Source: Ruminiclostridium herbifermentans
Lineage (GTDB): Bacteria > Bacillota > Clostridia > Acetivibrionales > DSM-1351
Direction: 5' to 3'
Assembly: GCF_005473905.2 (NCBI RefSeq)
Contig: NZ_CP061336.1
Span: 310,001-374,000, forward strand
DNA: 64,000 nucleotides
Position numbers and translations under genes: made by a program. Below are positions 13,988-54,235 of the stretch, one piece after another. The stretch's first letter is position 1. Each line of letters begins with the position of its first letter. The notes under the pieces were generated by a model. The model ran no database searches. It was given only the letters and a program-made list of their open reading frames with translations, and was not told where the DNA came from.

Positions 13988-14063
13988 GCTCCCATAGCTC
14001 AGGCGGCAGAGCGCATCCATGGTAAGGATGAGGTCTCCAGTTCGAATCTGGATGGGAGCTCCA
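13988..14063 (+). tRNA. tRNA-Thr (anticodon GGT), prophage target
   Basis: 76 bases including encoded CCA. Acceptor GCTCCCA/TGGGAGC; anticodon stem CATCC/GGATG with loop ATGGTAA, anticodon GGT; T arm CCAGTTCGAATCTGG. The gene is intact because the left phage junction restores its 3' half. Bases 14016-14063 are the left copy of the attachment core. Confidence 0.95.
14016..14063 (+). other. attL: attL core, 48 bp
   Basis: From the anticodon stem through CCA of tRNA-Thr; identical to 54188-54235. Bases diverge immediately on both sides (CA before versus TT; CATTG after versus AAAAG). The integrase gene lies next to it, pointing toward it. Confidence 0.92.
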
Positions 14064-14072
14064 CATTGAAAG

Positions 14073-14113
14073 TCCTTTAAATACGTGATAATACAGGTAT
14101 TTGAAGGATTTTT
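14073..14113 (+). terminator. Phage-supplied terminator after tRNA-Thr
   Basis: TCCTTTAAATAC (14073-14084) pairs with GTATTTGAAGGA (14097-14108, one wobble), followed by TTTTT. It replaces the host tRNA terminator, which the insertion moved to 54235-54277. Confidence 0.85.
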
Positions 14114-14187
14114 ATTATTATTAAATTTATTTGTTTGTTTGGTTTTTTAGGGTGATTTATTGTATTTTTTTGTTTTGTAAGTGGTAC

Positions 14188-15459
14188 TTAATTGGTACTA
14201 ACTTTTTTCAATTCAATAATCTTGTTATTATTTTTCTTAATCTTTTGTTCACCTTTACGACTTTTTTCTGGTAGTGCTTCAGGTAATCCATTATTAAGAA
14301 CTTGAACAGAATCTTCTACAACATTGTCAATAAAATGTACATAAATATCGTAAGTTGTGCTCACGTCTTTATGTCCAAGCAATTTACTTATAACTTTAAT
14401 GTCTACCTTTTCTCTAAAAAGTTTTGAAGCATACGTATGGCGCATTGTGTGAAGGGTTACCCATTCACAGCCGATAGCCTTACCTGCGTATTTAAAACGC
14501 TTTCTCAAATAACTCATTGTTGGCCTCTTACCCTTTTCTGTTTGAAATAGAGGGTCATTAGGTTTTTTATTAGGCTGCTTTAGCATGTATTCATCAAGTA
14601 GTTTTATAATGTCAGCTGGAATAGGGATAGTTCTCCTACTTGATTCTGTTTTAGTTGCGTTTTGGATTTTCTTTTGCTTTTCCAGATATGTTTTAGTAAC
14701 CTTAACAGTTCTTTTCTTCGTATCTATATCGGATCTGTTTAATGCCAGAGCTTCTCCAGGGCGCAAACCTGTATTATCCATGAATAAAGCATACATAAAA
14801 TGTTTTGTCCGCCGTCCTAATTGGTAAAGAAAAGCCTTTTCTTGCTCTTCTGTGAGAGCTTTTTTTTCTGCCTCATCTTCATCAAAAAGTAAAATATCGT
14901 TTTTAGGAATAATAGTTTTTCGAGCTTCATTTTTAATAACCATTTTCAATTCTTCTGCTTTTTCCAAAGCTCCATTTATGAGACTATGTGTAGCCTTAAT
15001 AGTTTCTTGGCTAAAACCTTCATCTGATAATGAATTATAAAATTTTTGAATTAATTCTAAATTAAGAGTTTTCAATGGCATCTTAGCAATGTCATATCTC
15101 TTTAATCTTGCAATGGATGTTAAATACTTTTCTCTAGTATTGGTTCTTATAGATGGCTTTTTATGCGTTTCAAACCACTCTTGACACCACTTAATTAATG
15201 TTTTATCTGATGGCTCAACATACTCACCCTTTCCTAGAGCAGTAAGGGCTTCTCTCATTTTTTTTACTAGAAGACCTTTTTCGTTTTTCTTTCCATATAT
15301 GCTTTTGTATTCTGTTTTAGAGCGTTGCTTACCATCCTTTCCAGTATATTCTTTTGTACCAACTGGATATCTTGCCTCCCAAAGTTGTTTTGATTCTATC
15401 CAACGAATCATACCTTCATTTCTACTACGTCGCTTTCTTTTCTTATTAATATCTTCCAT
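14188..15459 (-). CDS. int: Phage integrase (tyrosine recombinase)
   Basis: 423 residues, minus strand, 125 bases from attL. N-terminal arm-binding domain (RNEGMIRWIESKQLWEARYPVG), a SAM-like core-binding domain (about 85-190), then the catalytic domain: Arg in TGLRPGEALAL, HxxR in TLHTMRHTYASKLF, His in LGHKDVSTTYDIY with the nucleophile Tyr in that motif. All catalytic residues are present. It integrates and, with an excisionase, excises the prophage at tRNA-Thr. The C-terminal 40 residues are Lys/Asn-rich. Its start faces agrB across 98 bases, so int and agrBD share a divergent control region. Confidence 0.95.
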   Translation of the reverse strand: MEDINKKRKRRSRNEGMIRWIESKQLWEARYPVGTKEYTGKDGKQRSKTEYKSIYGKKNEKGLLVKKMREALTALGKGEYVEPSDKTLIKWCQEWFETHKKPSIRTNTREKYLTSIARLKRYDIAKMPLKTLNLELIQKFYNSLSDEGFSQETIKATHSLINGALEKAEELKMVIKNEARKTIIPKNDILLFDEDEAEKKALTEEQEKAFLYQLGRRTKHFMYALFMDNTGLRPGEALALNRSDIDTKKRTVKVTKTYLEKQKKIQNATKTESSRRTIPIPADIIKLLDEYMLKQPNKKPNDPLFQTEKGKRPTMSYLRKRFKYAGKAIGCEWVTLHTMRHTYASKLFREKVDIKVISKLLGHKDVSTTYDIYVHFIDNVVEDSVQVLNNGLPEALPEKSRKGEQKIKKNNNKIIELKKVSTN

Positions 15460-15498
15460 ATTTTATTTCCTTTCATAATTATAGTATCTATTACTTTT

Positions 15499-15530
15499 CA
15501 ATTAATGTATAATTTAAATAACATTAATTG
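15499..15530 (+). promoter_or_regulatory. Inverted repeat over the agrB promoter
   Basis: CAATTAATGT (15499-15508) and ACATTAATTG (15521-15530) are exact reverse complements with a 12-base spacer. A perfect -10 box TATAAT (15508-15513) lies inside. No good -35 box is found at 17 bases (TATCTA), as in activator-dependent promoters. On the other strand a TATAAT lies at 15478-15483 for int. The site is a candidate operator controlling agrBD and perhaps int. Confidence 0.5.
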
Positions 15531-15557
15531 AACTTTATAAAATAGTATAGGTGATTT

Positions 15558-16142
15558 ATGTTAGACTTAATTACTAAGAAGATTACAAACCAGATTGTTT
15601 TGAATTTCCCTAATATAACCACAGAAAAAGCTATGGAAATTGATTACGGTCTCTATATGGCTTTTTCTGATATTTTAAAGGCGTTAACTATAATAATAGT
15701 TTCTTTACCATTTGGCTTATTTTTGGAAGTATTGACAGCAATTTTTACTTTTGGTTTACTTCGTATGTTTTTAGGTGGTATTCACTCAAAAACACAATTA
15801 GGATGTTTATCTGCATACTTTTTTATAATTTACGGCAATTGTATCTTATCAATATTAGTGACATATGACTTTTTAAATGTAGTATTATTACCAGTATCAA
15901 TAGTTATTGCTTTTTTATATTCTCCAGCAGATTTACCTAGTAAACCTATACTTTCTAAAAAACAATATAAAAAGCTAAAATTATTTGGTATGATAGAACT
16001 TATTATATTGTTTACTATATCATTTTTTGTTCCTAAGGTTTATTCTAATATAATTTGTATTAATTCTTTTGTTGTTACTATACTTATTACTCCTGCAGCA
16101 TATAAATTAACTAAAAATACATTAAGTAATTGTTTATTGTAA
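15558..16142 (+). CDS. agrB: AgrB-like peptide-processing membrane protease
   Basis: 194 residues, integral membrane protein with about five to six hydrophobic segments. The AgrB signature RMFLGGIHSKTQLGC is at about 69-83, with the catalytic His in GGIH and Cys in LGC. AgrB cleaves AgrD at its C-terminal side, forms the thiolactone ring and aids export. It is followed 11 bases later by the agrD ORF. Length and motif are normal for Firmicute AgrB. It is unusual in lying inside a prophage beside the integrase. Confidence 0.92.
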   Translation: MLDLITKKITNQIVLNFPNITTEKAMEIDYGLYMAFSDILKALTIIIVSLPFGLFLEVLTAIFTFGLLRMFLGGIHSKTQLGCLSAYFFIIYGNCILSILVTYDFLNVVLLPVSIVIAFLYSPADLPSKPILSKKQYKKLKLFGMIELIILFTISFFVPKVYSNIICINSFVVTILITPAAYKLTKNTLSNCLL

Positions 16143-16153
16143 AGGAGGGTTAT

Positions 16154-16294
16154 ATGAAAAAAAATATAAAGCTATTAGTTCTGACAGCTTTAGTAGCTTT
16201 GGGAACCTTTACCGCGTACACATCAGCGAATGCCTGTTGGCTCTTTGGATTTCACCAAAAGGAGTGCCCTAAAACATTAATTAAACGAGATTAA
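16154..16294 (+). CDS. agrD: AgrD-like autoinducing peptide precursor
   Basis: 46 residues, with a very strong AAAGGAGGG ribosome site. Order of parts: basic start MKKNIK, a hydrophobic helix (LLVLTALVALGTFTAYTSA), then NACWLFGF followed by the hydrophilic tail HQKECPKTLIKRD. Clostridial AgrD proteins have a Cys-led hydrophobic ring followed by an HQP..PK-type tail, so the mature peptide probably has a thiolactone starting at Cys28 in CWLFGF. A second Cys in the tail (KECPK) is unusual. It lies directly behind agrB and its stop codon overlaps the shared terminator. Confidence 0.88.
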   Translation: MKKNIKLLVLTALVALGTFTAYTSANACWLFGFHQKECPKTLIKRD

Positions 16295-16317
16295 AAAAGG
16301 CTATATGCCTTTTTTAA
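16291..16317. terminator. Shared bidirectional terminator of agrBD and agrAC
   Basis: TTAAAAAAGGC (16291-16301) and GCCTTTTTTAA (16307-16317) are exact reverse complements around TATAT. A-run and T-run on both sides make it work in both directions. It contains the end of the agrD stop codon (16292-16294) and overlaps the agrC stop (16301-16303), so the two operons end within 7 bases of each other. Confidence 0.85.
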
Positions 16318-17599
16318 TTTTTATTATTTGAACAAATTTAGAATCATCATTGTCAAATTGTATGATGTTAACTACATTTGAATATTTCCTGAGGATATTT
16401 TCTACAATTGCCAAACCATGACCTCTATCATTTCCTTTTGTAGAGTAGCCATCTTCTTTGATTTTACTCATAATAGGCTTAATACTACAACTATTCTTAA
16501 TTGTAAATTGTATATCAGTATCTGTTCCTAAAATAAACATTTCGATTATCTTATCATTACTATTTTGAGTAGCTTCAATTGCATTATCTAAATGTATTCC
16601 AATTATTTCACAAAGTTCTGATATCTTTATATTAGGGATTGACTCTACCACTCCAACTACTTGTAAATCAAATGTTATACCTAATTTATTAGCACTATTC
16701 ATTTTAGAGTATATAATTCCAAAAAGAGCAGCATTTTTAATATTATATATTGCTGTGGTTGTAAGCCCTTGAGCAGTACCTATAATCTCATCCAAATAGC
16801 CTGTAGCTTCAGTATACTTATTAGTATGAAGTAAAGTATTAATTACAGATAGATGATTTACTTGGTCGTGTTTAAAACGTCTTAGATCCTGTAGAGCATT
16901 ACCTAAAGATTCATTATAAAATTTTTGGTGTTGAAGGTCTATTTTTTGTTTCTCATTCTCATTTAAGGATAGAATATACCATATAGTAAACATACAAAAG
17001 ATTAATGCGATTACCAACATTATTATAAAATTTCTAATTTCAAATGAATTCTGAAAGAAATATATACCTATATAAATACAAAATATTAGAAAGACTAGGC
17101 ATACCATGTAATATATGGTTTTGTTTGAAATAGCAGTTTTTTTCTTGAATAGCAAAACAAGTGATACAAATATTCCTGCAACAGCATAAATTGCAAAATT
17201 AACAGCAATATATAAAGATATATTTGATGCTGTCTGAGTTATGGTTAATTTAAAGTTAAACAAACTAAAAATCAATATTGATATTGCGTTTCCAAAGCCA
17301 AGTCCAATACCCATAATGCAGAAAGAAAAAATGGATTCTAAATATGTAGTATTTAACGAATATTTTATAATTAAAGTACTTAACACAAATAGAAGAATAG
17401 TATCTGTTATTCTTAATATAAAATTACTGTTAATAATTTGAAATGTAGATGAAGATAATAACGTATTAGTTACAGAAAATATGGTTATAAAGAATAGTCT
17501 TCTCTTAGGAGTAACTTTCAAATCATATGCGTTATGAAGAAATAAATAAATAAGTAAAGCACTTAATGTAGTGAACACTATATTTGCAATTACAAACAT
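16301..17599 (-). CDS. agrC: AgrC-like sensor histidine kinase (GHKL)
   Basis: 432 residues. Start at 17599 (MFVIANIVF) because TTGGAGGAATTTCTT precedes it; the TTG at 17614 is part of that site. N-terminal half has about six membrane segments as in AgrC/ComD receptors. The cytoplasmic half has the H box DLRRFKHDQVNHLSVI, the N box IGIHLDNAIEATQNS and the G box DRGHGLAIVENILRKYS. It should bind the AgrD-derived peptide and phosphorylate AgrA. It overlaps the end of agrA by 10 bases, so the two are translationally coupled. Confidence 0.92.
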   Translation of the reverse strand: MFVIANIVFTTLSALLIYLFLHNAYDLKVTPKRRLFFITIFSVTNTLLSSSTFQIINSNFILRITDTILLFVLSTLIIKYSLNTTYLESIFSFCIMGIGLGFGNAISILIFSLFNFKLTITQTASNISLYIAVNFAIYAVAGIFVSLVLLFKKKTAISNKTIYYMVCLVFLIFCIYIGIYFFQNSFEIRNFIIMLVIALIFCMFTIWYILSLNENEKQKIDLQHQKFYNESLGNALQDLRRFKHDQVNHLSVINTLLHTNKYTEATGYLDEIIGTAQGLTTTAIYNIKNAALFGIIYSKMNSANKLGITFDLQVVGVVESIPNIKISELCEIIGIHLDNAIEATQNSNDKIIEMFILGTDTDIQFTIKNSCSIKPIMSKIKEDGYSTKGNDRGHGLAIVENILRKYSNVVNIIQFDNDDSKFVQIIKIKKGI

Positions 17600-18321
17600 A
17601 AGAAATTCCTCCAATTTTGTTGTGTTTTAAAATTATCATAATATTTGGGGCCAATATCGCAGTATTCCCCATTTGTTAATGTCAAAACTTTTCTTTTTTG
17701 ATCTAAACTAAATACGAATTCAACATTTACAAATGTTGAACGGTGGCATCGCTTAAAACGGGAGTCATTCATCCTGTTTACTAGTTGTTCTAATCCTTCA
17801 TATGTTGAATATATACTACTATTTGATTGTGTATAAACATTTGTTTTTGTTTGAACTCTCTCAATATGAGTTATGTCTTCAATGGGAATAAAAAATATTT
17901 CGTGGTTACATTTAATATCTATAATATTCCTCTTAGTAGTTTTATTTTCTTTTGAGAGATTTATTAAGGTTTTTTCAAGCATTGACCATCCTGGTTTTGG
18001 AATAAAGTTATATGCCTGTACTTCAAAAGCTTGCTGAATATATTCTAGGCAACCTGTCATAAAAATAATTTCGCAACTATACCCCAATTTTCTTAAATGC
18101 TTAGCTAGAGACATGCCATTTGTATTACTATTTAAATTAACATCAATAATGCATACATTAACTAACCCTTTTAATACTGTTGATATAAATTCATTTGGTG
18201 ATGATGTTACCAAGAGTATTTCACCATCAACATCATTTTTTTCAAACCAGCTTTTCGAGAATTTTTTTTCATATTCCCCAAGAACTCTTAGTTCATCATC
18301 TAATATTGCTAAATTAATCAT
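17590..18321 (-). CDS. agrA: AgrA-like response regulator (LytTR)
   Basis: 243 residues, minus strand. ATG at 18321 is chosen (MINLAILDDELRVLGE) with TTGGGGG as ribosome site. Receiver domain 1-125 with the acidic pair DD, phosphoryl Asp in CIIDVNLNSNTNGM, and the Lys in FIPKPGW. LytTR DNA-binding domain about 140-240 (IDIKCNHEIFFIPIEDITHIE ... FKRCHRSTFVNVEFVFSLDQ). AgrA regulators activate promoters with direct repeats; I could not identify such repeats before agrB. Known agr-bearing C. difficile phages were described with agrB/D/C, so a linked agrA is noteworthy (from memory). Confidence 0.92.
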   Translation of the reverse strand: MINLAILDDELRVLGEYEKKFSKSWFEKNDVDGEILLVTSSPNEFISTVLKGLVNVCIIDVNLNSNTNGMSLAKHLRKLGYSCEIIFMTGCLEYIQQAFEVQAYNFIPKPGWSMLEKTLINLSKENKTTKRNIIDIKCNHEIFFIPIEDITHIERVQTKTNVYTQSNSSIYSTYEGLEQLVNRMNDSRFKRCHRSTFVNVEFVFSLDQKRKVLTLTNGEYCDIGPKYYDNFKTQQNWRNFLCL

Positions 18322-18356
18322 TTTCAAATCCCCCAACACTAATAATTTCTAAGTAT

Positions 18357-18385
18357 ATGTTATTATTTTAAGCGATAATATGCAA
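18357..18385 (-). promoter_or_regulatory. agrAC promoter
   Basis: On the minus strand: -35 TTGCAT (18380-18385), -10 TAACAT (18357-18362), 17-base spacer. A half operator AGCGATA (18371-18377) lies in the spacer and a full operator (18394-18410) lies just upstream of the -35. The -10 is identical to that of the Cro-side promoter. Confidence 0.6.
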
Positions 18386-18393
18386 TGGTTAAA

Positions 18394-18410
18394 TATCGCT
18401 TATTACGATA
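18394..18410. promoter_or_regulatory. Repressor operator O1 at the agrAC promoter
   Basis: TATCGCTTATTACGATA matches the 17-bp palindrome TATCGC-N5-GCGATA with one mismatch. It begins 9 bases upstream of the agrAC -35 box, about 0.7 kb from the operators around the switch genes. Confidence 0.75.
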
Positions 18411-18618
18411 ATAAAGCGTGAGTATTTGAAATTTTGTCTAGATTGCTTCAAAATTCAACCAATTACATATTAAGTAAGAGTTATAATATGATTGTAACAA
18501 AATGATGATATATGGCACATATTGATATTAATTGGATTTAAATGTAATTATTTTACTATGGAATATAATACAATTAATAGTATAATGGAAATAAAAAAAG
18601 ACAATAAAGGATGGACTT

Positions 18619-18738
18619 ATGTTACATACTATTAGACTTGGTATAAATAATATACCTTTTATATCAATTAAAGGTATATTATTTATAAACTTAGATTATC
18701 CATGGAGCGATGATATATTTTCATTATTTATCATATGA
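18619..18738 (+). CDS. Small ORF (39 aa) with an internal hairpin
   Basis: ATG 18619 follows AAAGGATGG with a good spacing. The predicted product starts MLHTIRLGINNIPF and ends DIFSLFII; it has no recognisable family. It ends inside the 3' end of the convergent repressor gene (15-base overlap). Within it, 18642-18659 and 18670-18687 form an exact 18-bp inverted repeat. Several TATAAT-like boxes (for example in GAATATAATAC near 18562) lie upstream. It may be a genuine small peptide gene or only the sequence around the hairpin. Confidence 0.35.
   Translation: MLHTIRLGINNIPFISIKGILFINLDYPWSDDIFSLFII
18642..18687 (+). repeat. Perfect 18-bp inverted repeat, 10-base loop
   Basis: TATAAATAATATACCTTT (18642-18659) and AAAGGTATATTATTTATA (18670-18687). 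There is no T run after it on either strand. It may act as an RNA hairpin controlling the small ORF, or as a terminator-like barrier between the repressor gene and the agr leader. Confidence 0.8.
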
Positions 18739-19074
18739 AGAAAATGCATCAAGTATTTTTTTAACCACCTCAGGTGGTATGTTTTTATCTTTAAATTCTT
18801 TGGCTAGTGCTATATATTCAATGCCGATTTCTTGTAACTCAGATGAAATATCAGTAGTTATACTATAATTCATATCTTCATATTCTTCTTTAAAGAGGAA
18901 CGACAATGTTATTCCTAAAGCAGAGCAAATACTTTCAATAGTAGATATTCCACATGATTTGCCATTTTCTATTTCACTGAGAAAGTTTTGAGATATATTA
19001 GCCCTCTTAGATACTTCTTTCTGAGAAAGCTGCTTTTCTTTTCTTATTTTTTTAATCTGTTCACCAATTTTCAT
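18724..19074 (-). CDS. XRE-family phage repressor (CI-like)
   Basis: 116 residues, minus strand. HTH domain 1-65: IGEQIKKIRKEKQLSQKEVSKRANISQNFLSEIENGKSCG. The C-terminal 50 residues are helical and acidic, probably for dimerisation; there is no LexA/CI-type Ser-Lys protease domain, so induction does not use self-cleavage. It is divergent from the Cro-like gene with operators O2-O4 between them, the classic lysogeny switch. O2 lies 17 bases upstream of its start. It is the natural candidate for binding O1 at agrAC. Confidence 0.87.
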   Translation of the reverse strand: MKIGEQIKKIRKEKQLSQKEVSKRANISQNFLSEIENGKSCGISTIESICSALGITLSFLFKEEYEDMNYSITTDISSELQEIGIEYIALAKEFKDKNIPPEVVKKILDAFSSYDK

Positions 19075-19090
19075 AGCGTATAACCTCTAG

Positions 19091-19107
19091 TATCGCTAAA
19101 AGCGATA
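19091..19107. promoter_or_regulatory. Operator O2
   Basis: TATCGCTAAAAGCGATA, a perfect 17-bp palindrome (7-bp arms), just upstream of the repressor start codon. Confidence 0.85.
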
Positions 19108-19183
19108 AAATAAATTTGAAATAATTAGTATGATAAAGAAAAAGTTACTAAAATAAAGGATTATCAGTACATTTATTTGCCAA

Positions 19184-19200
19184 TATTGCATATAGCGATA
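19184..19200. promoter_or_regulatory. Operator O3
   Basis: TATTGCATATAGCGATA; one mismatch from TATCGC-N5-GCGATA. It lies upstream of the -35 box of the Cro-side promoter. Confidence 0.8.
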
Positions 19201-19208
19201 CTTATTGT

Positions 19209-19237
19209 TTGAAAATAATCGCATATTGCGATAACAT
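19209..19237 (+). promoter_or_regulatory. Cro-side early promoter with operator O4
   Basis: TTGAAA (19209-19214), 17-base spacer, TAACAT (19232-19237). Operator O4, AATCGCATATTGCGATA (19217-19233), fills the spacer, so bound repressor would block polymerase directly. Confidence 0.75.
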
Positions 19238-19267
19238 TAAATCATCAAACGTAAAGGAGACGATTTA

Positions 19268-19489
19268 ATGTTAAAACTAAACTTAAAACAAATCCGCAAA
19301 AGAAAAAGACTAACTCAATCACAATTTGCAGAAATGTTAGGAATTTCACAAAATTATCTCTGCGAACTGGAAAACGGAAAGAGTTTCCCAAGCGGAGATA
19401 AGCTAGAACAACTATCACTAAAATTAAACATCCCTGTATCCAAATTAATAAAAAACAATTTAGATGAATCTAATGAAATTATAGCATAA
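19268..19489 (+). CDS. Cro-like XRE regulator
   Basis: 73 residues, a single HTH domain: LKQIRKRKRLTQSQFAEMLGISQNYLCELENGKSFPSGDKLEQLSLKL. Ribosome site AAAGGAGA precedes ATG 19268. First gene of the rightward early operon; divergent from the repressor. A fifth operator follows it at 19490. Confidence 0.87.
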   Translation: MLKLNLKQIRKRKRLTQSQFAEMLGISQNYLCELENGKSFPSGDKLEQLSLKLNIPVSKLIKNNLDESNEIIA

Positions 19490-19506
19490 TATCGTCAAAA
19501 CCGATA
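19490..19506. promoter_or_regulatory. Operator O5
   Basis: TATCGTCAAAACCGATA, about two mismatches from consensus, directly after the Cro-like gene. It could support looping or control of the following gene. Confidence 0.55.
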
Positions 19507-19584
19507 TATCTTTATCAAAATTCCAGATTTGATTATTAAAAATATAAAAAAGTAAGTTTTGTTTATCAAAAGGAGGGATAGTAA

Positions 19585-19770
19585 TTGAAAAATGATGAAC
19601 TACCAATGTTACTGACACCTAAAGATGTAAAGGAATATCTTGATATATCCCATGATCAAGTTTATAGGCTATTTAGAAGTAAAAAGTTTCCTGCAGAACG
19701 GTCAGGTAAAGGGAAATACATAATCCCAAAGCCAAGATTTCTAAAATGGCTTGGAGTTGAAAATAATTAA
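19585..19770 (+). CDS. Helix-turn-helix (excisionase/MerR-like) protein
   Basis: 61 residues, TTG start behind AGGAGGG. The pattern MLLTPKDVKEYLDISHDQVYRLFRSKKFPAERSGKGKYIIPKPRFLKWL is the winged-helix fold of the helix_turn_helix_17/excisionase family. It could be the Xis that assists integrase, or an early regulator; its location in the early operon rather than beside int leaves this open. Confidence 0.72.
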   Translation: MKNDELPMLLTPKDVKEYLDISHDQVYRLFRSKKFPAERSGKGKYIIPKPRFLKWLGVENN

Positions 19771-19798
19771 AAAATTAAAATTTAAGGAGGATTTATTT

Positions 19799-20050
19799 AT
19801 GACTAGAAAAGCAACAGGAGTAGTTAGAAAAGTAGATGACTTAGGAAGAGTAGTATTGCCAATTGAGCTTCGTAGAACGTTTGGAATTGAGGAGAAGGAC
19901 GCTTTAGAAATTTATGTTGATGAAGAAACAATTATTTTGAAGAAATACGAGCCTGCATGTATCTTCTGCAATGAAGCAAAAAACGTTGAAGCATACAAGG
20001 GAAAGAATATCTGCTGTAACTGCATAAGTGAATTAAAGAGGGGAAGTTAA
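19799..20050 (+). CDS. AbrB-like transcription regulator with Cys knuckle
   Basis: 83 residues; ATG 19799 behind AAGGAGG. The N-terminal 50 residues (GVVRKVDDLGRVVLPIELRRTFGIEEKDALEIYVDEETIILKKY) are a swapped-hairpin AbrB domain, very near to host AbrB. The C-terminal CIFCNEAKNVEAYKGKNICCNCISEL adds two CxxC pairs, as in clostridial AbrB proteins. AbrB-type factors control transition-state genes; a phage copy could alter host sporulation (inference). Confidence 0.85.
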   Translation: MTRKATGVVRKVDDLGRVVLPIELRRTFGIEEKDALEIYVDEETIILKKYEPACIFCNEAKNVEAYKGKNICCNCISELKRGS

Positions 20051-20054
20051 CAGA

Positions 20055-20252
20055 ATGGACAAGCAAACAGCACTAAAAAATCTCGCTGAAAAACTTATCG
20101 AATACAAAGAAACTAAAAGTGATGGCGGGAAGAGCCTAAGCTACGGAATTTATCTAGGTATGCTACTTGCATACAGCCAGTGTGGTGTGATTAGTCACGA
20201 AGAATTCGAAATTTATAGTAAGAAAATAGCTAATACAATTTATCAAAATTAA
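20055..20252 (+). CDS. Small hypothetical phage protein
   Basis: 65 residues, helical (KNLAEKLIEYKETKSDGGKSLSYGIYLGMLLAYSQCG). It follows the AbrB-like gene after 4 bases, within the early operon. No family recognised. Confidence 0.6.
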   Translation: MDKQTALKNLAEKLIEYKETKSDGGKSLSYGIYLGMLLAYSQCGVISHEEFEIYSKKIANTIYQN

Positions 20253-20285
20253 ATCTGCAAATATACAAAAGCGGGAGGGAGGACA

Positions 20286-20621
20286 ATGGAAGAAAACTGG
20301 TGCTGTCTAGCAATTAGTATTTTAACGGACTGTACGCCGGAGCAAGCTGTAGTGATTTTTGAATTTGGAAATAATCGCAAAAAGAAGCCTGCAATAAAAT
20401 TAAGCAAAGAAGATTTTGAAGGGATAAGAGAACATAAAAACAACGGATTATCGTGGAAGTACATAGGTGAGTTATTTGGGCTGAGTGAAAGCGGAGTGCT
20501 TAAAAGATTTAAGAAATACGAAGCGGATTGCGAAAGGCAAAGGCAGCAAGCTAATAAAAAAATTAGTGCTGTAGCAGAAAGGGATGATTCATATGCCAGA
20601 ACTACGCCAAAAAGAAATTAA
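20286..20621 (+). CDS. Phage protein with C-terminal HTH
   Basis: 111 residues; ribosome site GGGAGGGAGG. Residues about 40-78 (KLSKEDFEGIREHKNNGLSWKYIGELFGLSESGVLKRFKKY) look like a homeodomain-like HTH. The last part is basic. Probably an early regulator; function unknown. Confidence 0.62.
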   Translation: MEENWCCLAISILTDCTPEQAVVIFEFGNNRKKKPAIKLSKEDFEGIREHKNNGLSWKYIGELFGLSESGVLKRFKKYEADCERQRQQANKKISAVAERDDSYARTTPKRN

Positions 20622-20784
20622 ATATCGGAATTGTAGTTATTTCTATAGTGCATATTTAGAGCATGGTATTTTGGTTAACAGCGGGTATAATTGCAGGCAT
20701 CCTGAGCAGGAGGAAATAGTCACAGAAGAGGGACAAAAGATAGGTAGTTGTTATGATTGGAGCTGCCCTTTGTGTATTAAGTAG
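20593..20784 (+). CDS. Cys-rich small phage protein
   Basis: 63 residues, overlapping the previous gene by 29 bases; ATG 20593 is preceded by AGAAAGGG. Cys at YRNCSYF, NCRHPEQ, SCYDW and SCPLCIK suggest a metal site. Such small Cys-rich proteins are common in clostridial phage early regions. Function unknown. Confidence 0.62.
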   Translation: MPELRQKEIKYRNCSYFYSAYLEHGILVNSGYNCRHPEQEEIVTEEGQKIGSCYDWSCPLCIK

Positions 20785-20840
20785 GAGAGGAAATTCAAAA
20801 TCTTGAATTGCTAGGCAACTATGAGGAAGGAGTAAAAAGT

Positions 20841-22187
20841 ATGTTACAAAACATTGATATAAATAAGCTGAGAAATCACCCAAAAAATCCACGAAAAGAA
20901 CTTGGGGATTTGACGGAGCTTGCAGAAAGTATTAAAACTAGGGGAGTTTTACAAAACTTGACGGTAGTGCCTTGGTTCTGCTTTGATACAGGTGTCGGAG
21001 CAGATGACCCAAAGGTACAAGAGGAAATGGGGTATTTCGTTGTAATTGGGAATAGACGTCTTGCAGCTGCAAAACTTGCAGGGCTAACAGAATTACCTTG
21101 TATAGTATCAGATATGGATTACAAGACACAGTTAGCAACAATGCTGCTTGAAAATATGCAACGTAGCGATTTAAATATATACGAGCAGGCGCAAGGTTTT
21201 CAAATGATGCTCGACCTTGGAGAGTCAATAAACAACATATCAGAAAAGACCGGATTCTCAGAATCAACAGTAAGGCGAAGAGTAAAGTTACTAGAACTTG
21301 ATAGCGATAAATTAAAAAAATCAGTAGAGCGTGGTGCTTCACTTCTAGACTACATGGAACTAGATAAGATTCATGATATATCACTAAGAAACAGTGTATT
21401 AGACAAAATAGGTACACCTAATTTTAAATGGGAGCTGCAGAGTGCTATCGAAAAAGAAAAAAAGGAAAAACAGAGGACATTTATTATTTCTGAGCTTCAG
21501 AAATTTGCAAAAAAGACAGAAGATACAGCAGATCTTATCACTATAAAAAACTACTTCCCATCTGAATACGATCAGAAAATTGAAGTACCCGACGATGCTC
21601 AAGACACAGAATACTTCTACTATGAAACTGGTTGGGGAGCAATTCAACTATGCAGAAGACAAGATGAAATTAATGAGAGAGACAATGAAGATGACGAAGC
21701 GCAAAGAATGCGACAAGACAGAGAAAAAAAGCTAGTTGAATTAAGAGAACTGACACATCAAGCTTATAATCTAAGACTTAGCTTTGCAAAACAAATAACT
21801 AGCACTAAGGCTAAAAAAAATATTAGAACAATAGTTGAGTACTTACTACGTAAAGGAACAGCCGAATATTTTGATTTTGGCATTGATCTTAATTCTATAA
21901 AAGAATATTTCAATATAGAGGTTGATGGAGATGATGAAGAGGAATTAAAATATGACGACATAGCAGATGATATTGCAAAACAGCCGGAACTTAGTTTATT
22001 TGCGATGGTATATCTATCACTTGAATCAACTCAAAACCGCTATTATAACTGGAATGGAGAATATGAAAATGATGAAGATTCAAACTTAGTCTATGATTTT
22101 TTAACAAAGCTAGGATATGAAATGTCAGAAGAGGAAAAAGCACTTCGAGACGGAACGCATAAACTATTTTCAAATAGCGAGTGTTGA
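20841..22187 (+). CDS. ParB/Srx-fold phage protein
   Basis: 448 residues, ATG 20841 behind GGAAGGAG. Residues 1-105 are a ParB nuclease-like domain (NPRKELGDLTELAESIKTRG...VIGNRRLAAAKLAG), 115-185 a ParB-type HTH (YEQAQGFQMMLDLGESINNISEKTGFSESTVRRRVKLLELD). The remainder is long, acidic and unique. No ParA partner is encoded nearby, so plasmid-like partition is unlikely. ParB-fold CTPase/nuclease-like proteins occur in phage early regions and beside PAPS-reductase-family genes (IbrB/IbrA pairs); the PAPS-family gene at 26302 is 4 kb downstream. Confidence 0.8.
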   Translation: MLQNIDINKLRNHPKNPRKELGDLTELAESIKTRGVLQNLTVVPWFCFDTGVGADDPKVQEEMGYFVVIGNRRLAAAKLAGLTELPCIVSDMDYKTQLATMLLENMQRSDLNIYEQAQGFQMMLDLGESINNISEKTGFSESTVRRRVKLLELDSDKLKKSVERGASLLDYMELDKIHDISLRNSVLDKIGTPNFKWELQSAIEKEKKEKQRTFIISELQKFAKKTEDTADLITIKNYFPSEYDQKIEVPDDAQDTEYFYYETGWGAIQLCRRQDEINERDNEDDEAQRMRQDREKKLVELRELTHQAYNLRLSFAKQITSTKAKKNIRTIVEYLLRKGTAEYFDFGIDLNSIKEYFNIEVDGDDEEELKYDDIADDIAKQPELSLFAMVYLSLESTQNRYYNWNGEYENDEDSNLVYDFLTKLGYEMSEEEKALRDGTHKLFSNSEC

Positions 22188-22197
22188 GGGAATAGCA

Positions 22198-23136
22198 ATG
22201 GGATGCAAAAAAAACTGGACTCAGAGTGAAATAGAACTGCTTCGTGACTTATGGGGTTCAAAAACAATTCCTCAGATAGCTAAAATCATGGGTAGAAGTC
22301 AAAACGCCATAACAGTAAAATCCAAAAGGATTGGGCTTGGTGCTTTCAAAGATCATAGTGAATATATACCGGCGCTCCAAGTATCAAAACTTTTAGGAAT
22401 AGACATACACACTATCACAGACTACTGGATTCCCAGACTAGGTCTTCCATTCAAACATATAGCTCCAAGAGGTAAAAAAGAGTTTACTTACATCAGAATA
22501 TCGTCACTCATTACCTGGCTTAAAAATAATCCTGATAGATGGGATAGCCGTAGAGTAGAATTATATGCTTTTGGAAGTGAGCCAGAATGGCTAAAACAAA
22601 AGAGAAAAAATGATTCTGCTAATAAGCCTAAAGGTTGCATTAAGTGGACACCGCAAGAAGATGCAAAGCTTATTTATCTATATCGACAAGGAGAAAAGAT
22701 AAAGGATATTGCTGATAAATTAGGTAGGTCACTTTCAGGAGTAGAACACAGAGTAGCTCGGCTGGATGTTTGGGGTTCGGGTGCTTACATTGGCAACAAT
22801 CGTCAAAATGAACGGAAAAAGAATAGAAGAGCTTTTGAACACAAAGCACTTGAAGCTAGGTTAATTGCAACATTGAAGACAAGATTTAATCAGCTTAACT
22901 GGGATGGATTTTGGCAGAAAGATATATGTATGAAATGGAATCCAGTCAAGGGCTGTACTTCTGGAGAAATAAACTGTGACGAATGTAGCAGCTTTATAAG
23001 AATGAAGCCACAATACTGTAAGCGTTGCGGAGGTACATTTTATAGCAGACAGATTCAAGACATTTGCGATTTATGCAAAAAAGCTAGGAAGAAACAATAT
23101 CAGAAAAAATGGGCTGTATTAAACAAGAGGACATAA
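22198..23136 (+). CDS. Phage DNA-binding protein with two SANT/Myb-like repeats
   Basis: 312 residues; ATG 22198 behind TTGAGGG. Two Myb/GcrA-like segments: WTQSEIELLRDLWGSKTIPQIAKIMGRSQNAITVKSKRIGL (about 7-47) and WTPQEDAKLIYLYRQGEKIKDIADKLGRSLSGVEHRVARL (about 150-190). The C-terminus has Cys clusters (CSSF, CKRCGGTFYSR, CDLCKKARKK) typical of a zinc ribbon. Likely an early or middle gene regulator; not identified. Confidence 0.65.
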   Translation: MGCKKNWTQSEIELLRDLWGSKTIPQIAKIMGRSQNAITVKSKRIGLGAFKDHSEYIPALQVSKLLGIDIHTITDYWIPRLGLPFKHIAPRGKKEFTYIRISSLITWLKNNPDRWDSRRVELYAFGSEPEWLKQKRKNDSANKPKGCIKWTPQEDAKLIYLYRQGEKIKDIADKLGRSLSGVEHRVARLDVWGSGAYIGNNRQNERKKNRRAFEHKALEARLIATLKTRFNQLNWDGFWQKDICMKWNPVKGCTSGEINCDECSSFIRMKPQYCKRCGGTFYSRQIQDICDLCKKARKKQYQKKWAVLNKRT

Positions 23137-23162
23137 AACAAAATTATGAAAGGAGAAAAGCT

Positions 23163-23585
23163 ATGAAGAAAGTTATATCTTTTGGCAGTTGCCGATTCTG
23201 CGGACAAAACAGCCTGCATGATAAGGAAGATTTTGAAACAATAGAACAGGCTAATGAATGTGCAACGCTTCATTGTAATTGTGCTGAAGCTACAAAGTAT
23301 CAGTTTCAAAAGAAAGCGGAAGAGAATAGGCGACAAGCAATAAAGCGAGCAGAGGAGCAAATAGAAAATTTATTTGGTGGTGGCTCAGCTTCATATGGAT
23401 TGCTACCAGTAGAGAACATTATAAAAGAGCTTATTTTAAACTCAGCAATAATGATTTATGACGGCTTATTAAAAGATGTATCAGTTAATATTACTTCTTG
23501 TCTAAAAGTGAAAATTTCTAAATCAACAAAAGGGAAGTTAACTTTTATGAGGTCAGATGCAGCGGTATTTAAACAGGAGGTATAG
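23163..23585 (+). CDS. Cys-rich hypothetical phage protein
   Basis: 140 residues; ATG 23163 behind GAAAGGAGAAAAG. Starts with SFGSCRFCGQNS and has CATLHCNCAEA, giving a probable zinc site, then a Glu/Arg-rich coiled-coil (EENRRQAIKRAEEQIENL) and a small C-terminal domain. Known only as a phage family. Confidence 0.6.
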   Translation: MKKVISFGSCRFCGQNSLHDKEDFETIEQANECATLHCNCAEATKYQFQKKAEENRRQAIKRAEEQIENLFGGGSASYGLLPVENIIKELILNSAIMIYDGLLKDVSVNITSCLKVKISKSTKGKLTFMRSDAAVFKQEV

Positions 23586-23587
23586 CA

Positions 23588-23827
23588 ATGAGATTATTAA
23601 ATAAGGTTATGCCTTTGTTTAATACAGGTACTGATTTATCCTCTATGCTAGATCATACGTATATAGCCTATTTTGCAATATGTAATGATTGCGGGAAGAC
23701 GTGGAATATAAGCAGGTATAAAAAAGTTACAAAGAGAGGCTATATTTGCCCATATTGTACAAGTGAAAGACAAAGGGAGAGGAAAAACCGCTATGTTAAA
23801 AGGTCGGTAGGTGAGCTACATAAATGA
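23588..23827 (+). CDS. Small zinc-ribbon phage protein
   Basis: 79 residues with ICNDCGKTWNISRYKKVTKRGYICPYC, two CxxC knuckles. Ribosome site ACAGGAGG. Two bases after the previous gene. Function unknown. Confidence 0.6.
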   Translation: MRLLNKVMPLFNTGTDLSSMLDHTYIAYFAICNDCGKTWNISRYKKVTKRGYICPYCTSERQRERKNRYVKRSVGELHK

Positions 23828-23845
23828 TAAAGAAAACAGAAAAAA

Positions 23846-23881
23846 ACGCCTTGTATGCTATTCCAGTAGTACACAAGGCGT
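23846..23881 (+). repeat. Hairpin upstream of the Rep-like gene, possible origin
   Basis: ACGCCTTGT (23846-23854) and ACAAGGCGT (23873-23881), 9 exact pairs with an 18-base loop and no T run. It is in the only sizeable gap of the early operon (23828-24074), just before an HUH Rep-like gene. An HUH nicking origin often has such a stem-loop. GGCGTTTACGGGCTCG near 23963 is another GC-rich stretch. Confidence 0.45.
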
Positions 23882-24074
23882 AACCTTAAATTTGACTAAT
23901 TGCCAAACAAATACAATAACAGTATAGCATACTTAACGGCATAAGTCAAAGTCAACGCTGATAGGCGTTTACGGGCTCGTAATAGGTATTAACTTAACAA
24001 CCATAAACAAGAAATTACCATTATTAGTTAATTAATATGACACAAAAATTATTAACATAAAGGGGGTTAAATAT

Positions 24075-24986
24075 GTGCCGTATAGTAACAGCTATACCCT
24101 AGAAAATTATGAGGTCATATATGACATTCAATATGAAGATAGCATAGAGGAAAAAATAGAAGCTCTGAGAGATAAAAATATTAAGAAATATAGAGTAAAA
24201 ACAATAAAGAGCGGTCAAATGCTGGAATGTGAAATATATCCTATATGGAAAACAGGTAATAAAGATATCAGGATGAAGAAAAAAAAGCCTAGTAGAGAAG
24301 TGCAAAAAAATTTGAATGACAAAAACACAAAGAAAAAAATTATAAGGTTAATAAATACAAATTTCACTAATGAGGATATATGGGCTACATTTACATACGA
24401 TAGTAAACATTTACCGGGCAGTCCGGAGCAGGCCAAAAAGGATATGCAAAATTACATTAGACGTTTAAACAGATATGTAAGAAAAAATAAACTTCCTGCT
24501 CTTAAATACATTTATGTAACCGAGTATGAAGAGGATGAGAAGAAAGGTAAAAAAAGGGTACACCATCACATAGTAATGAATTTCCGAGATAGAGATGCAG
24601 CGGAAAAAATTTGGGATAAGGGAGGTAGGACACACAGTAGACGATTGCAGACTGATGATTATGGTCTGGAAGGACTAGCCAGATACATAACAAAAGATTC
24701 TAAAAATTCAAAGAGATATACAACAAGCAGAAATTTAGAAAAACCTAAAATTACTATAGCAGATAGCAAAATGACAAAAAGGAAAGCGGAGAGGATAGCC
24801 AGAGATCAGAATTTAGCAAGTGACATATTCGAAAAGTTATATGAGGGATACATATTTAATGACATTGATATAAAGTATAGCAAATTTGTGAGTGGGGCTT
24901 ATCTGTATGTAAGGATGCGGCAGAGGGATAAGCCTCATATGAGGGAAAAGAATCGGAAAAGCAAAGGAGGTTTAGAGATTGCCTAA
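24075..24986 (+). CDS. HUH-endonuclease-like replication protein
   Basis: 303 residues, GTG start behind AGGGGGT. Residues about 110-215 carry rolling-circle Rep motifs: WATFTYDSKHLP (motif 1), KRVHHHIVMNF (the His-hydrophobe-His motif 2) and LEGLARYITKDSKNSKRY with the candidate nucleophile Tyr. The C-terminus is basic. It probably nicks DNA to start phage replication. No helicase gene follows, so it may recruit a host helicase. An overlapping ATG (24073) opens a 9-codon ORF in another frame and is rejected. Confidence 0.72.
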   Translation: MPYSNSYTLENYEVIYDIQYEDSIEEKIEALRDKNIKKYRVKTIKSGQMLECEIYPIWKTGNKDIRMKKKKPSREVQKNLNDKNTKKKIIRLINTNFTNEDIWATFTYDSKHLPGSPEQAKKDMQNYIRRLNRYVRKNKLPALKYIYVTEYEEDEKKGKKRVHHHIVMNFRDRDAAEKIWDKGGRTHSRRLQTDDYGLEGLARYITKDSKNSKRYTTSRNLEKPKITIADSKMTKRKAERIARDQNLASDIFEKLYEGYIFNDIDIKYSKFVSGAYLYVRMRQRDKPHMREKNRKSKGGLEIA

Positions 24987-25374
24987 AAGCAAAATTCCAA
25001 CAGCAAGTGAGAGCGTAGAGCAAATATATTTGTTTAGATGGGCTACATTATCATCTGGTGCTATGCCAGAGCTTGATCTAATGTACCATATACCTAATGG
25101 TGGAAAGAGGGATATTGCTACAGCGAAGAGACTCAAAGCGGAAGGAGTAAAAGCAGGTGTACCGGATATATGCTTACCAGTACCTAGGGGTGTATATCAT
25201 GGACTATATATAGAACTAAAGGCAGGCGAGAATAAAACGACACGAAAACAAAACGAATGGTTAGAGGCATTAGATAATAACGGATATTTTACAGCAGTAT
25301 GTTACGGCTGGGAGGAAGCCTCAAAGGTTATTACAAATTACTTGAAAAATGGAGGTAGCAGAGAAAATGTTTAA
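24979..25374 (+). CDS. VRR-NUC domain nuclease
   Basis: 131 residues, TTG start behind GGAGG, overlapping the Rep-like gene by 8 bases. VRR-NUC motifs: SVEQIYLFRWA, MYHIPNGGKRD, GVKAGVPDICLPVP (Asp) and YIELKAGENKTTRKQ (Glu-x-Lys). These PD-(D/E)xK nucleases are frequent in phage replication modules, where they may resolve branched DNA. Confidence 0.85.
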   Translation: MPKSKIPTASESVEQIYLFRWATLSSGAMPELDLMYHIPNGGKRDIATAKRLKAEGVKAGVPDICLPVPRGVYHGLYIELKAGENKTTRKQNEWLEALDNNGYFTAVCYGWEEASKVITNYLKNGGSRENV

Positions 25375-26206
25375 TAAAAAGTTAGTTTATGTATGTTCTC
25401 CAGTTAAGGGAGATATAGAAGAAAATATAACAAGAGCAAAAGAGTATTGCAAGACTGTTTTAATAATGGGGTATATTCCAATAGCTCCACACGTTACATT
25501 CAACGGGATACTTAACGATAAAGTACAGCAGGAGAGGGAAACAGCATTAGCTTTAGGGCTTGAGCTTGTGAAACATTGTGATGAAGTATGGGTATTTGGA
25601 AATGTCATAAGCGAAGGAATGCAGGGAGAGATAGAATTAGCAAAACAAATAGGTATACCAGTAAAGTCAGTTTTACATACTGATGGAACGGAGGAGGTAG
25701 AGCAGGCGGTAAAGAAAGCGGAACATGCAACAGTAAGAGCACTGCAAGCAACAGTTGAAGCAGAAAGAGCTGCAGAAACAGCAATGTTAAGTAAAGAAGT
25801 GTCCGAAACGGACACCATAAAGCCAGAACATAAAATAACCCATAAACTAAAAATTTTTGAGGAAGTACAGGGTTTATCGAATGGTACAAAAGTATGGATT
25901 GACAGCGTTTATCCGATAGAAAATACCTTCTTAGGGATAAAGAAAGACAATGTAATTACTGATATTAAGGGTAAAACAGTATGGGCGTTAGCAACTGATT
26001 TTAGAGTATTATGCAAGGCTTATAAATGGAAAGATAAGAATAAAATGAGTAGTCTTTTAAGGCTTTTGTATAACATACAGATTTTGCAAGAGACTGGAAT
26101 GCTCGAAGAAGAGTTTAATATATTTGATCAAGAAAACCCAGACATAAAGACTATTGATGAGCTAAATGAAACAATAGAAACTGAAATATCATATTGGGAA
26201 GAATAG
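25367..26206 (+). CDS. DUF4406 (nucleoside deoxyribosyltransferase-like) protein
   Basis: 279 residues; ATG 25367 behind GGAGGTAG. Residues 1-105 match DUF4406 (YVCSPVKGDIEENITRAKEYC ... APHVTFNGIL ... CDEVWVFGNVISEGMQGEIELAKQ), a fold like nucleoside 2-deoxyribosyltransferase. A linker of Ala/Glu coiled coil (about 110-150) leads to an unrelated C-terminal domain of 120 residues. It may act in nucleotide metabolism; the activity is not certain. Confidence 0.7.
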   Translation: MFNKKLVYVCSPVKGDIEENITRAKEYCKTVLIMGYIPIAPHVTFNGILNDKVQQERETALALGLELVKHCDEVWVFGNVISEGMQGEIELAKQIGIPVKSVLHTDGTEEVEQAVKKAEHATVRALQATVEAERAAETAMLSKEVSETDTIKPEHKITHKLKIFEEVQGLSNGTKVWIDSVYPIENTFLGIKKDNVITDIKGKTVWALATDFRVLCKAYKWKDKNKMSSLLRLLYNIQILQETGMLEEEFNIFDQENPDIKTIDELNETIETEISYWEE

Positions 26207-52292: not shown

Positions 52293-52739
52293 TCAGTATT
52301 TTTTAAGTGTTTTAATTACATAATAAACACCTTGTATAAAAAATATTGAACTTACAAATGATTCTGCAACAACAATTTTTTGAAAAATTATTATATGGTC
52401 GGTTATAAACTTAATAGTAAAAAACAAATACATAAAATTAAATATTAAAGCTGAAATACTTAATATAAGCGCTATTATTATAGCTGCAAAATACTTATCT
52501 ATATAGTGGTATTTCTTTAATCTTGCAATTCTTTCATTAGATAATGCGCTAATTAATATGCTTAATGCTGTAAATAGAAAACCCGCTATTACTGCGTTAT
52601 AATTTGTTAAATCAATTACCTTATTTTGATCAATTTTAAAACAATTGTTTTTAAATAAAATAATAGTAATAAAAACTGATACCACAAAGAGTAAGATATT
52701 GCTCCAATAGAAACGCAGAACATTGGATTTAATTACCAC
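52293..52739 (-). CDS. Four-helix membrane protein (accessory operon, gene 2)
   Basis: 148 residues from GTG 52739, chosen for AGGTGA just upstream; GTG 52748 overlaps the stop of gene 1 and is the alternative. Four hydrophobic segments (about 12-32, 52-72, 85-108, 115-140; VIAGFLFTALSILISALSNERIARL, YFAAIIIALILSISALIFNFMYLFF). It is translationally linked to the 332-residue partner. Small membrane proteins paired with a cytosolic partner at the right end of a prophage often serve superinfection exclusion or abortive infection; here this is only inference. Confidence 0.68.
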   Translation of the reverse strand: MVIKSNVLRFYWSNILLFVVSVFITIILFKNNCFKIDQNKVIDLTNYNAVIAGFLFTALSILISALSNERIARLKKYHYIDKYFAAIIIALILSISALIFNFMYLFFTIKFITDHIIIFQKIVVAESFVSSIFFIQGVYYVIKTLKKY

Positions 52740-52744
52740 AAAAA

Positions 52745-53743: not shown

Positions 53744-53929
53744 AGTATTCCTCCTAAATTTACATAATAGTTTATTATATAACAATAATTACATTTTATA
53801 GTAGTAATCATAATAATGCAATAAATTAGAAGCAAATACTTAACTAAAAAACAGAACATATGTTCTAATGTTATTATACTATTAATGTATAATGTTTACA
53901 ATAGCTACTAATAAATTTATATAAACAAT
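53744..53929. promoter_or_regulatory. Control region with a LexA-type SOS box
   Basis: GAACATATGTTC at 53854-53865 fits the Gram-positive LexA/DinR box core (GAAC-N4-GTTC). A -10-like TATAAT lies at 53889-53894 for the plus strand, and another on the minus strand near 53770-53776 for the leftward operon. The box is about 110 bases upstream of the leftward gene and about 20 bases upstream of the plus -10, so it better fits a plus-strand promoter. Confidence 0.45.
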
Positions 53930-54187: not shown

Positions 54188-54235
54188 TCCATGGTAAGGA
54201 TGAGGTCTCCAGTTCGAATCTGGATGGGAGCTCCA
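54188..54235 (+). other. attR: attR core, 48 bp
   Basis: Identical to the tRNA-Thr 3' part at 14016-14063; it begins TCCATGGTAAGGATGAGG and ends GGGAGCTCCA. It is the original chromosomal 3' end of the tRNA gene, followed by that gene's terminator. Confidence 0.93.

Follow-up and report, generated by a model that had tools for sequence, protein, structure and literature searches.

A complete agr quorum-sensing cassette with a repressor-type operator in the lysogeny control region of a Ruminiclostridium herbifermentans prophage

A prophage of Ruminiclostridium herbifermentans carries a complete agr quorum-sensing cassette between its integrase gene and its cI/cro lysogeny switch, and a CI/Cro-type operator lies at the promoter of the response regulator gene agrA. 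The prophage is part of a 64,000-nucleotide stretch (assembly GCF_005473905.2, contig NZ_CP061336.1, positions 310,001 to 374,000), referred to below as the window; coordinates are window positions unless another locus is named. A second prophage, locus L047 of R. papyrosolvens C7, has the same design but another operator word. We give an even chance to the reading that the cassette works as a self-contained phage agr circuit integrated in the control of lysogeny, a module of a transcription factor and a small open reading frame (ORF) with its own signal.

The sequence-only reading of the window had agrB and agrD running right and agrA and agrC running left, all four between the integrase gene (14188–15459, minus strand) and the switch (cI at 18724–19074, minus strand), and these coordinates hold. 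The genes and the hairpin between them are as follows.

15558–16142, plus strand: agrB, the peptidase that would make the peptide (PF04647, 117 bits against a cut-off of 23)
16154–16294, plus strand: agrD, a 46-aa precursor (TIGR04223, 24.2 bits against a cut-off of 19)
16287–16321: terminator-like hairpin between the convergent ends of agrD and agrC
16301–17599, minus strand: agrC sensor kinase (PF14501, 53 against 22 bits; PF14689, 31.8 against 28.1 bits)
17590–18321, minus strand: agrA receiver–LytTR response regulator (PF04397 LytTR, 62.8 against 22.6 bits; PF00072 receiver, 38 against 30.2)

Signature residues described earlier as intact are invariant in alignments of 8 to 14 sequences. 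These are the GG.H motif (H76) and Cys83 of AgrB (9 sequences), C28-W29 and C38-P39 of AgrD (14 sequences), H249, N344 and the RG.G box of AgrC (8 sequences), and D60 and K109 of AgrA (8 sequences). All parts of an agr system (AgrBDCA) were found: the AgrB peptidase His/Cys residues, the AgrD Cys core with its C-terminal recognition stretch, the AgrC membrane kinase and the AgrA LytTR regulator. The earlier suggestion that a prophage carries, beside its switch, a self-contained circuit including a LytTR regulator is thus borne out, in that all four genes are present and intact. Scores stayed below cut-off for PF02518 on AgrC and for the NCBIfam equivalogs of AgrB, AgrC (84 of 500 bits) and AgrA (52.8 of 400 bits). 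Judged from the sequence, agrC probably starts at ATG 17599 (ribosome-binding site GGAGGAATTTCTT) rather than at TTG 17614 of the ORF list. Because this start falls within the 3′ end of agrA, the two genes appear to form a single operon with coupled translation. By analogy with known AgrD ring limits, a ring is predicted around CWLFG(F). The predicted ring CWLFG is common to the window and L047 and absent from the other 10 precursors compared, among them the resident AgrD at 3.14 Mb of the same genome (ring CWIWA).

The link between cassette and switch was read from operator sites, and together with a small ORF overlapping cI these make it stronger than the sequence-only reading could tell. 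An operator word, TATCGC-N5-GCGATA, was derived from the cI–cro gap and then tested in the 402-nt gap between agrA and cI.

18724–19074, minus strand: cI-like repressor, 116 aa, with an HTH_3 domain and a conserved tail, peptidase domain unmatched
19268–19489, plus strand: cro-like repressor, 73 aa, PF01381; 53% or 59% identical to the L047 Cro in two comparisons
18394–18410: operator in the agrA promoter region, TATCGCTTATTACGATA, one mismatch to TATCGC-N5-GCGATA; perfect equivalent in L047
18361–18377: weak operator-like site, three mismatches, which may be chance
19091–19107: operator just upstream of cI, a perfect palindrome
19184–19200: operator, upstream site of the cro promoter, matching TATCGC-N5-GCGATA
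19217–19233: operator in the −35/−10 spacer of the cro promoter (TTGAAA-17-TAACAT), matching TATCGC-N5-GCGATA
19490–19506: operator-like site after cro, two mismatches; counterpart in L047

The site at 18394–18410 lies 72 nt upstream of the agrA start. As good a match in the 402-nt gap was reached in 11 of 20000 first-order Markov resamples. With at most one mismatch the word occurs at six places in the 4.8-Mb genome, and four of these fall within the 0.84 kb from 18394 to 19233, one of them at agrA. The weak site at 18361–18377 was considered as a second conserved operator and dropped, having no counterpart in L047.

L047 (genome G006, contig C71, which seems to carry part of the prophage only) keeps the gene order int-agrBD/agrCA-orfX-cI-cro-HTH-AbrB. 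Identities to the window are 55% for AgrA, 56% for AgrC and for AgrD, 50% for AgrB, 44% for CI, 59% for Cro and 70% for AbrB; the integrases, at 23%, are unrelated. The cI–cro operator word of L047 differs from that of the window and reads TATTAC-N5-GTAATA, and a perfect copy lies upstream of L047 agrA (as good a match in 6 of 20000 first-order Markov resamples). Three perfect copies occur in that 4.4-Mb genome, two of them at L047 including the one at agrA; with at most one mismatch there are 61 places, five within 1.14 kb at L047. Neither agrA gap holds the word of the other phage (3 and 4 mismatches). Relative to cro, the operators start at −874, −177, −84, −51 and +222 in the window and at −894, −175, −82, −49 and +230 in L047, with spacings of 93 and 33 nt kept. 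In both prophages the upstream cro operator stands 8 nt from the cro −35, and the agrA operator stands equally far from the proposed agrA −35, which in L047 belongs to a strong promoter match (TTGAAA-17-TATGAT, 10 of 12 positions). The DNA-reading helices, placed by eye, are alike within a phage and differ between the two: SQNFLSE and SQNYLCE for window CI and Cro, SQSYVSG and SQCYVTL for those of L047.

At sequence level, the change of the word at agrA in step with the cI/cro sites argues that the link between repressor and agrAC has been selected. It also bears on the possibility that the agr genes are passengers at an integrase–repressor hot spot, with no signalling role and an operator left over from a leftward promoter of an ancestral phage. 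The stretch between integrase and repressor often holds accessory genes, and an operator at the leftward early promoter is ordinary in lambda-like phages. The passenger explanation is nevertheless very improbable in our view, given the concerted change of the operator word and four frames that stay intact at 50–56% identity between the prophages.

Between the agrA promoter and the cI stop, both prophages hold a reading frame of 39–40 codons with a ribosome-binding site, absent from the ORF list and here called orfX.

18619–18738, plus strand: orfX, 39 aa; divergent from agrA, convergent with and overlapping cI; 46% identical in L047

Differences between the two copies fall 11/11/24 by codon position, and this is the only frame free of stops in both. 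The divergent agrA/orfX gaps measure 297 and 311 nt, and orfX overlaps the end of cI in each case. A transcription factor divergent from a small ORF, the layout of transcription factor–small ORF (TF-smORF) modules, is therefore present in both prophages. An AT-rich hairpin (18642–18687, 21-nt arms, no T-run) lies in orfX, and its L047 counterpart is smaller and terminator-like; some of the DNA conservation could thus have another cause. Neither orfX matched Pfam at E 1, nor did that of the window match a PHROG.

A profile of the two orfX sequences, run over 58 genomes of the order, found only the two prophages and one marginal match (G047, E 0.0099). A search with the CI pair gave, besides the two prophages, six places in three genomes; one of them, in G047, shares its contig with the marginal orfX match. 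By eye, these places appear to be XRE genes of the chromosome that share the C-terminal tail of CI, several of them beside exopolysaccharide genes; in the loci retrieved, every gene name other than agr, cI, cro, AbrB and int was likewise assigned by eye from translations. Within 1.2 kb of five of the six, and always convergent, lies a gene with the orfX-like repeat I.LGVPYIKSI.I.G.EYIN.DY, a small-protein family near XRE repressors.

L117, 3998–4192: orfX-like place
L118, 6218–6370: orfX-like place
L118, 12572–12817: orfX-like place
L119, 9196–9369: orfX-like place
L120, 1166–1438: orfX-like place

The distance to the tail-bearing XRE gene is an overlap of 4 nt in L119, then 26 nt in L120, 112 nt in L118, 642 nt at the second L118 place and 1150 nt in L117. 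At the last two, a free tail protein without helix-turn-helix (HTH) lies between the two or against the orfX-like gene. No orfX-like gene was found close to the sixth CI-like place (G045). A family profile over 391 genomes, with up to 20 candidates per genome scored and negatives non-exhaustive, gave one further clear match (G164, locus L123, E 3.5e-7), found by the orfX family alone. There an XRE-like gene that looks tail-bearing is 295 nt away, divergent and not convergent. Other matches beyond the training set (E 3e-4 to 0.01) resemble noise; the surroundings of three were read. From the linkage with tail-bearing repressors we infer that orfX may act on CI, and orfX points to a small-protein family travelling with XRE repressors outside phages. 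SinR/SinI is the analogy that comes to mind for CI and orfX. The match of CI to SinR covers the HTH only, and the tail has no Pfam match to SinI.

An action of orfX on CI would fit what was found of the repressor. No peptidase domain was matched in CI by Pfam, no ImmA-type protease was found in the prophage, and the sole PF06114 gene found in the genome lies outside it. SOS cleavage of the lambda kind is therefore unlikely and an antirepressor would make sense; CI probably needs some other inducer.

The signal genes agrB and agrD lie beside int without an operator, and the reception genes agrA and agrC form a separate operon with a CI/Cro-type operator at its promoter. On this arrangement, lysogens would export a cyclic peptide made from AgrD. 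CI (or Cro) would set the amount of AgrC and AgrA and, if repressing, would leave reception strongest at low CI, as in a new infection or early induction. AgrC would phosphorylate AgrA on peptide, AgrA would act at the agrA/orfX divergent region, and orfX would modulate CI, most simply as an antirepressor. Such logic would be that of the VqmA-phage/Qtip module, with the signal self-made as in arbitrium. The anatomical case, drawn from sequence, is strong, and from it we infer the function of the circuit. That the whole forms an autonomous phage-to-phage system, in which lysogens broadcast, the repressor gates reception and the regulator drives orfX to alter CI activity, is a tentative proposal that we rate somewhat short of even. 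The response could go towards exit from lysogeny or towards its promotion; by analogy, small-ORF precedent slightly favours exit.

The operator-free side of the cassette is where the opposite sign has its appeal.

15460–15557: divergent int/agrB gap, with the inverted repeat TTCAATTAATGT-N12-ACATTAATTGAA, a candidate regulator site that is not significant

The best match to the repressor word in the int/agrB gap has six mismatches in the window and four in L047, so signal production appears separate from CI. With agrBD free of the operator and agrAC under it, lysogens would talk and new infections would listen. An incoming phage, lacking CI and with agrAC derepressed, would then learn from lysogen peptide that the hosts are already lysogenic, and AgrA would favour lysogeny by acting on int, with which agrB shares the 98-bp divergent gap, or by turning orfX off, much as arbitrium does. 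We consider this unlikely, as no AgrA site was identified and the small-ORF precedents act towards lysis.

Several results weigh against a circuit acting on lysogeny, with exit or otherwise. Genome-wide, the operator words are not enriched: at two mismatches or fewer the window word has 80 occurrences against 84 for the reversed control, and at one mismatch or fewer the L047 word has 61 against 56. Only the strong sites and their clustering therefore count. With the agrA operator placed before the proposed −35 of agrA, CI could either repress or activate, and the agrA promoter match in the window is poor (TTGCAT-17-TAACAT, 7 of 12 positions, by eye). No promoter stands out for orfX, with 31 promoter-like sites in the window region and 30.7 in shuffles, and five of the six outside orfX-like places were reached via the repressor search. 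As to activation of the small-ORF promoter, the agrA/orfX gap holds no significant AgrA-like repeat; LytTR-like direct repeats with 20–24 nt spacing did not exceed shuffles in any of four gaps (320–499 of 500 reached the best score). Half-sites CAATTAAT, present twice in each of two window gaps, were dropped as AgrA sites because 535 of 5000 shuffles reached them. The position between int and cI is seen in only two prophages, out of 11 AgrA places in the genus, and in two others with agr at the lysis end (G004 and G009) no operator shared with their cI region was found.

Another candidate AgrA site, a TCGACAA core at the −35 of agrB/agrD promoters, occurs in L047, L040, L079, L080 and other loci. 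It is absent from the window agrB promoter and was dropped. Taken together, the unsuccessful searches for AgrA sites are the chief weakness of the model. Separately, the cI control region of the G004 prophage, which has agr at its other end, contains at L077 12086 a ACAATCGACAA word resembling one at the L047 agrB promoter; it may be an AgrA site or chance.

The distribution of the lineage was examined through AgrA. At E ≤ 1e-35 there are 21 places in 18 of the 58 genomes of the order. At E ≤ 1e-45, across 391 genomes of the class with up to seven candidates per genome scored and negatives non-exhaustive, seven genomes have a match and none lies outside the order. The genus holds 11 AgrA places in 8 of 11 genomes (contexts by eye). 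Five are in prophages: the window, L047, L040 (G004) and L053 (G009) at the lysis end, and L080 (G006, in IMG/VR). Four are beside recombinases or phage remnants (L054, L078, L079 and L055, the last with a stop in agrA), and two have no noticed phage gene within 20 kb (L051, L052). Outside the genus, 10 loci look chromosomal, five of them next to murG (by eye). The earlier reading had named homologues mainly at non-phage loci as a finding that would count against it; inside the genus the result goes mostly its way, and outside the genus it does not.

The full four-gene set occurs at 6 of the 11 places, among them four of the five prophage copies (not L080). L055 has a truncated agrB, and in L054, L078, L079 and L080 no agrB was found beside agrD. 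L055 (7630–10257, in a host we take to be R. cellulolyticum) is a decayed copy: besides the stop in agrA and the shortened agrB, it is flanked by a serine recombinase and, at its other end, a Cas9-like gene (by eye). A search for repressor operators in common with agrA in L040, L053, L054, L055 and L078 gave nothing convincing. At L042 (7682–8071) and L050 (2871–3293), agrBD-agrC loci without an agrA match, the position immediately upstream of agrC is taken by an XRE gene, as if replacing agrA; one of these two loci is in the window's own genome near 3.14 Mb.

In the AgrA tree (all 21 places) the genus forms one clade (100/99), eight mobile copies group together (94/92) and L055 joins those of R. 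cellobioparum (96/89). The AgrC tree places the window and L047 as a separate pair (100/100) outside all other genus copies in it; this tree has 25 rows and omits L078 (a near-copy of L054), the broken L048, L086, L090 and L092, and the AgrC fragment of a second L054 copy. The suggested comparison with host agr phylogeny thus gives the AgrC of the two prophages a lineage of its own, not a recent capture from the host. AgrB was found at 51 places; in addition to the copy in the window, 16 of these were retrieved with broad flanking sequence. The window's genome has six AgrB genes and no other close AgrA (best other 28–30% over parts).

These data bear on lysogenic conversion, in which the cassette would act on host genes and the repressor operator would only time its expression. 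Two related prophages have agr at the lysis end, away from cI, and the window's genome has a further locus with agrBD and agrC in which no agrA was matched. For phiCDHM1, host-directed roles and also coordinated induction were proposed by its authors (PMC3901668). Yet the phage supplies its own AgrA, the AgrC lineage is not that of a recent host capture, and in both prophages the cassette sits within the control region, where orfX overlaps cI. We regard conversion as rather unlikely.

The prophage itself is complete, spanning about 40.2 kb between exact 48-bp repeats of a tRNA-Thr 3′ end, with terminase, portal, head, tail-sheath and tape-measure genes inside (PHROGs).

14016–14063 and 54188–54235: att repeats, exact 48-bp match to the tRNA-Thr 3′ end
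14016–54235: complete prophage, by exact repeats and structural genes (PHROGs)
14188–15459, minus strand: tyrosine integrase (PF00589, 99 bits; phrog_1, 4e-69)

A 21-bp integrase-arm-like repeat occurs at 14178 and 54108. Near the right attachment site, two minus-strand genes at 52293–53785 without a PHROG match are candidate cargo.

Viral databases hold pieces of such systems. A viral contig collection gave no relatives to AgrA alone, AgrB alone, the AgrB alignment or orfX; the AgrA alignment found one contig, the same prophage as L080 (100% over 17.3 kb). INPHARED has no AgrB match at E 1e-5, a threshold at which AgrBs as distant as that of phiCDHM1 would be missed too, and no near DNA match for 14016–26000. 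AgrC matches 14 and AgrA 22 of its records, all below 60% identity. In six records the two matches adjoin (MT835918, MT837329, OR846968, OR846588, OR847058, OR848662), so phage-labelled scaffolds carrying AgrC-AgrA-like pairs do occur, which tells against novelty; three of these and one AgrA-only record were opened, and all four are UNVERIFIED and unannotated. LIBA6276 has a response regulator and no annotated kinase among 21 features seen. Among genome contigs, AgrC alone as query gave no match and the AgrB alignment gave 11 loci, mostly already found. PHROGs has an AgrB-like family (phrog_10353) and an AgrA-like family (phrog_8810), neither with an assigned function. Parts of these systems thus sit unrecognised in phage databases.

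That agr genes occur in C. difficile phages, as the sequence-only reading stated, is confirmed by phiCDHM1, which according to the available part of PMC3901668 carries agrD, agrB and agrC after the lysis genes and no agrA; the same part lists AgrB-containing putative cassettes in three Paenibacillus phages. Phage agr without AgrA is also stated in the portions seen of PMC10778935, PMC7790227 and PMC11945551. A literature search with few subscription journals and no preprints returned no title or abstract opening that reports AgrA in a phage agr system or an agr-associated repressor operator. In the reports consulted on phage-borne agr, AgrA is absent and the purpose of the signal was left open; here the receiver is present with a repressor-type operator. 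Whether phages use agr peptides to choose between dormancy and lysis becomes testable.

Among known systems, phiCDHM1 shares the phage-borne, clostridial-type agrD, agrB and agrC, and differs in position and in lacking AgrA (PMC3901668, available part). The window cassette is not of that type, having agrA, the int–cI position and an operator at agrA. Cassettes placed as in phiCDHM1 but including agrA are found in the G004 and G009 prophages (L040, L053). Five chromosomal loci beside murG have the same four genes as agrAC/agrDB in convergent layout, with AgrA 37–46% identical, and differ in that no phage gene, integrase or repressor was noticed beside them (by eye). In TF-smORF modules, as far as the part of PMC10432266 seen describes them, a regulator drives a divergent small ORF that disables cI, including quorum-sensing-controlled cases. 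VqmA-phage/Qtip of VP882 likewise has its regulator divergent from a small ORF near the repressor. Those are linear plasmid-like phages with one-component regulators that answer host signals or unknown cues, whereas here signal, kinase and regulator are all phage-encoded (PMC10432266, same part). Arbitrium (AimR-AimP-AimX of SPbeta phages) resembles the cassette in that the phage makes its own peptide and has a small gene beside the decision circuit. Its secreted hexapeptide is taken up and bound by AimR, in contrast to a predicted cyclic peptide sensed outside by a kinase (PMC6458997, part seen). The cassette itself is AgrB/D/C/A by Pfam and NCBIfam and not an AimR-type receiver with a linear peptide; the search for AimR did not extend to other parts of the prophage. 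If the proposed reading is true, lysogen counting by temperate phages would have a third chemical basis, distinct from arbitrium and from eavesdropping on host signals.

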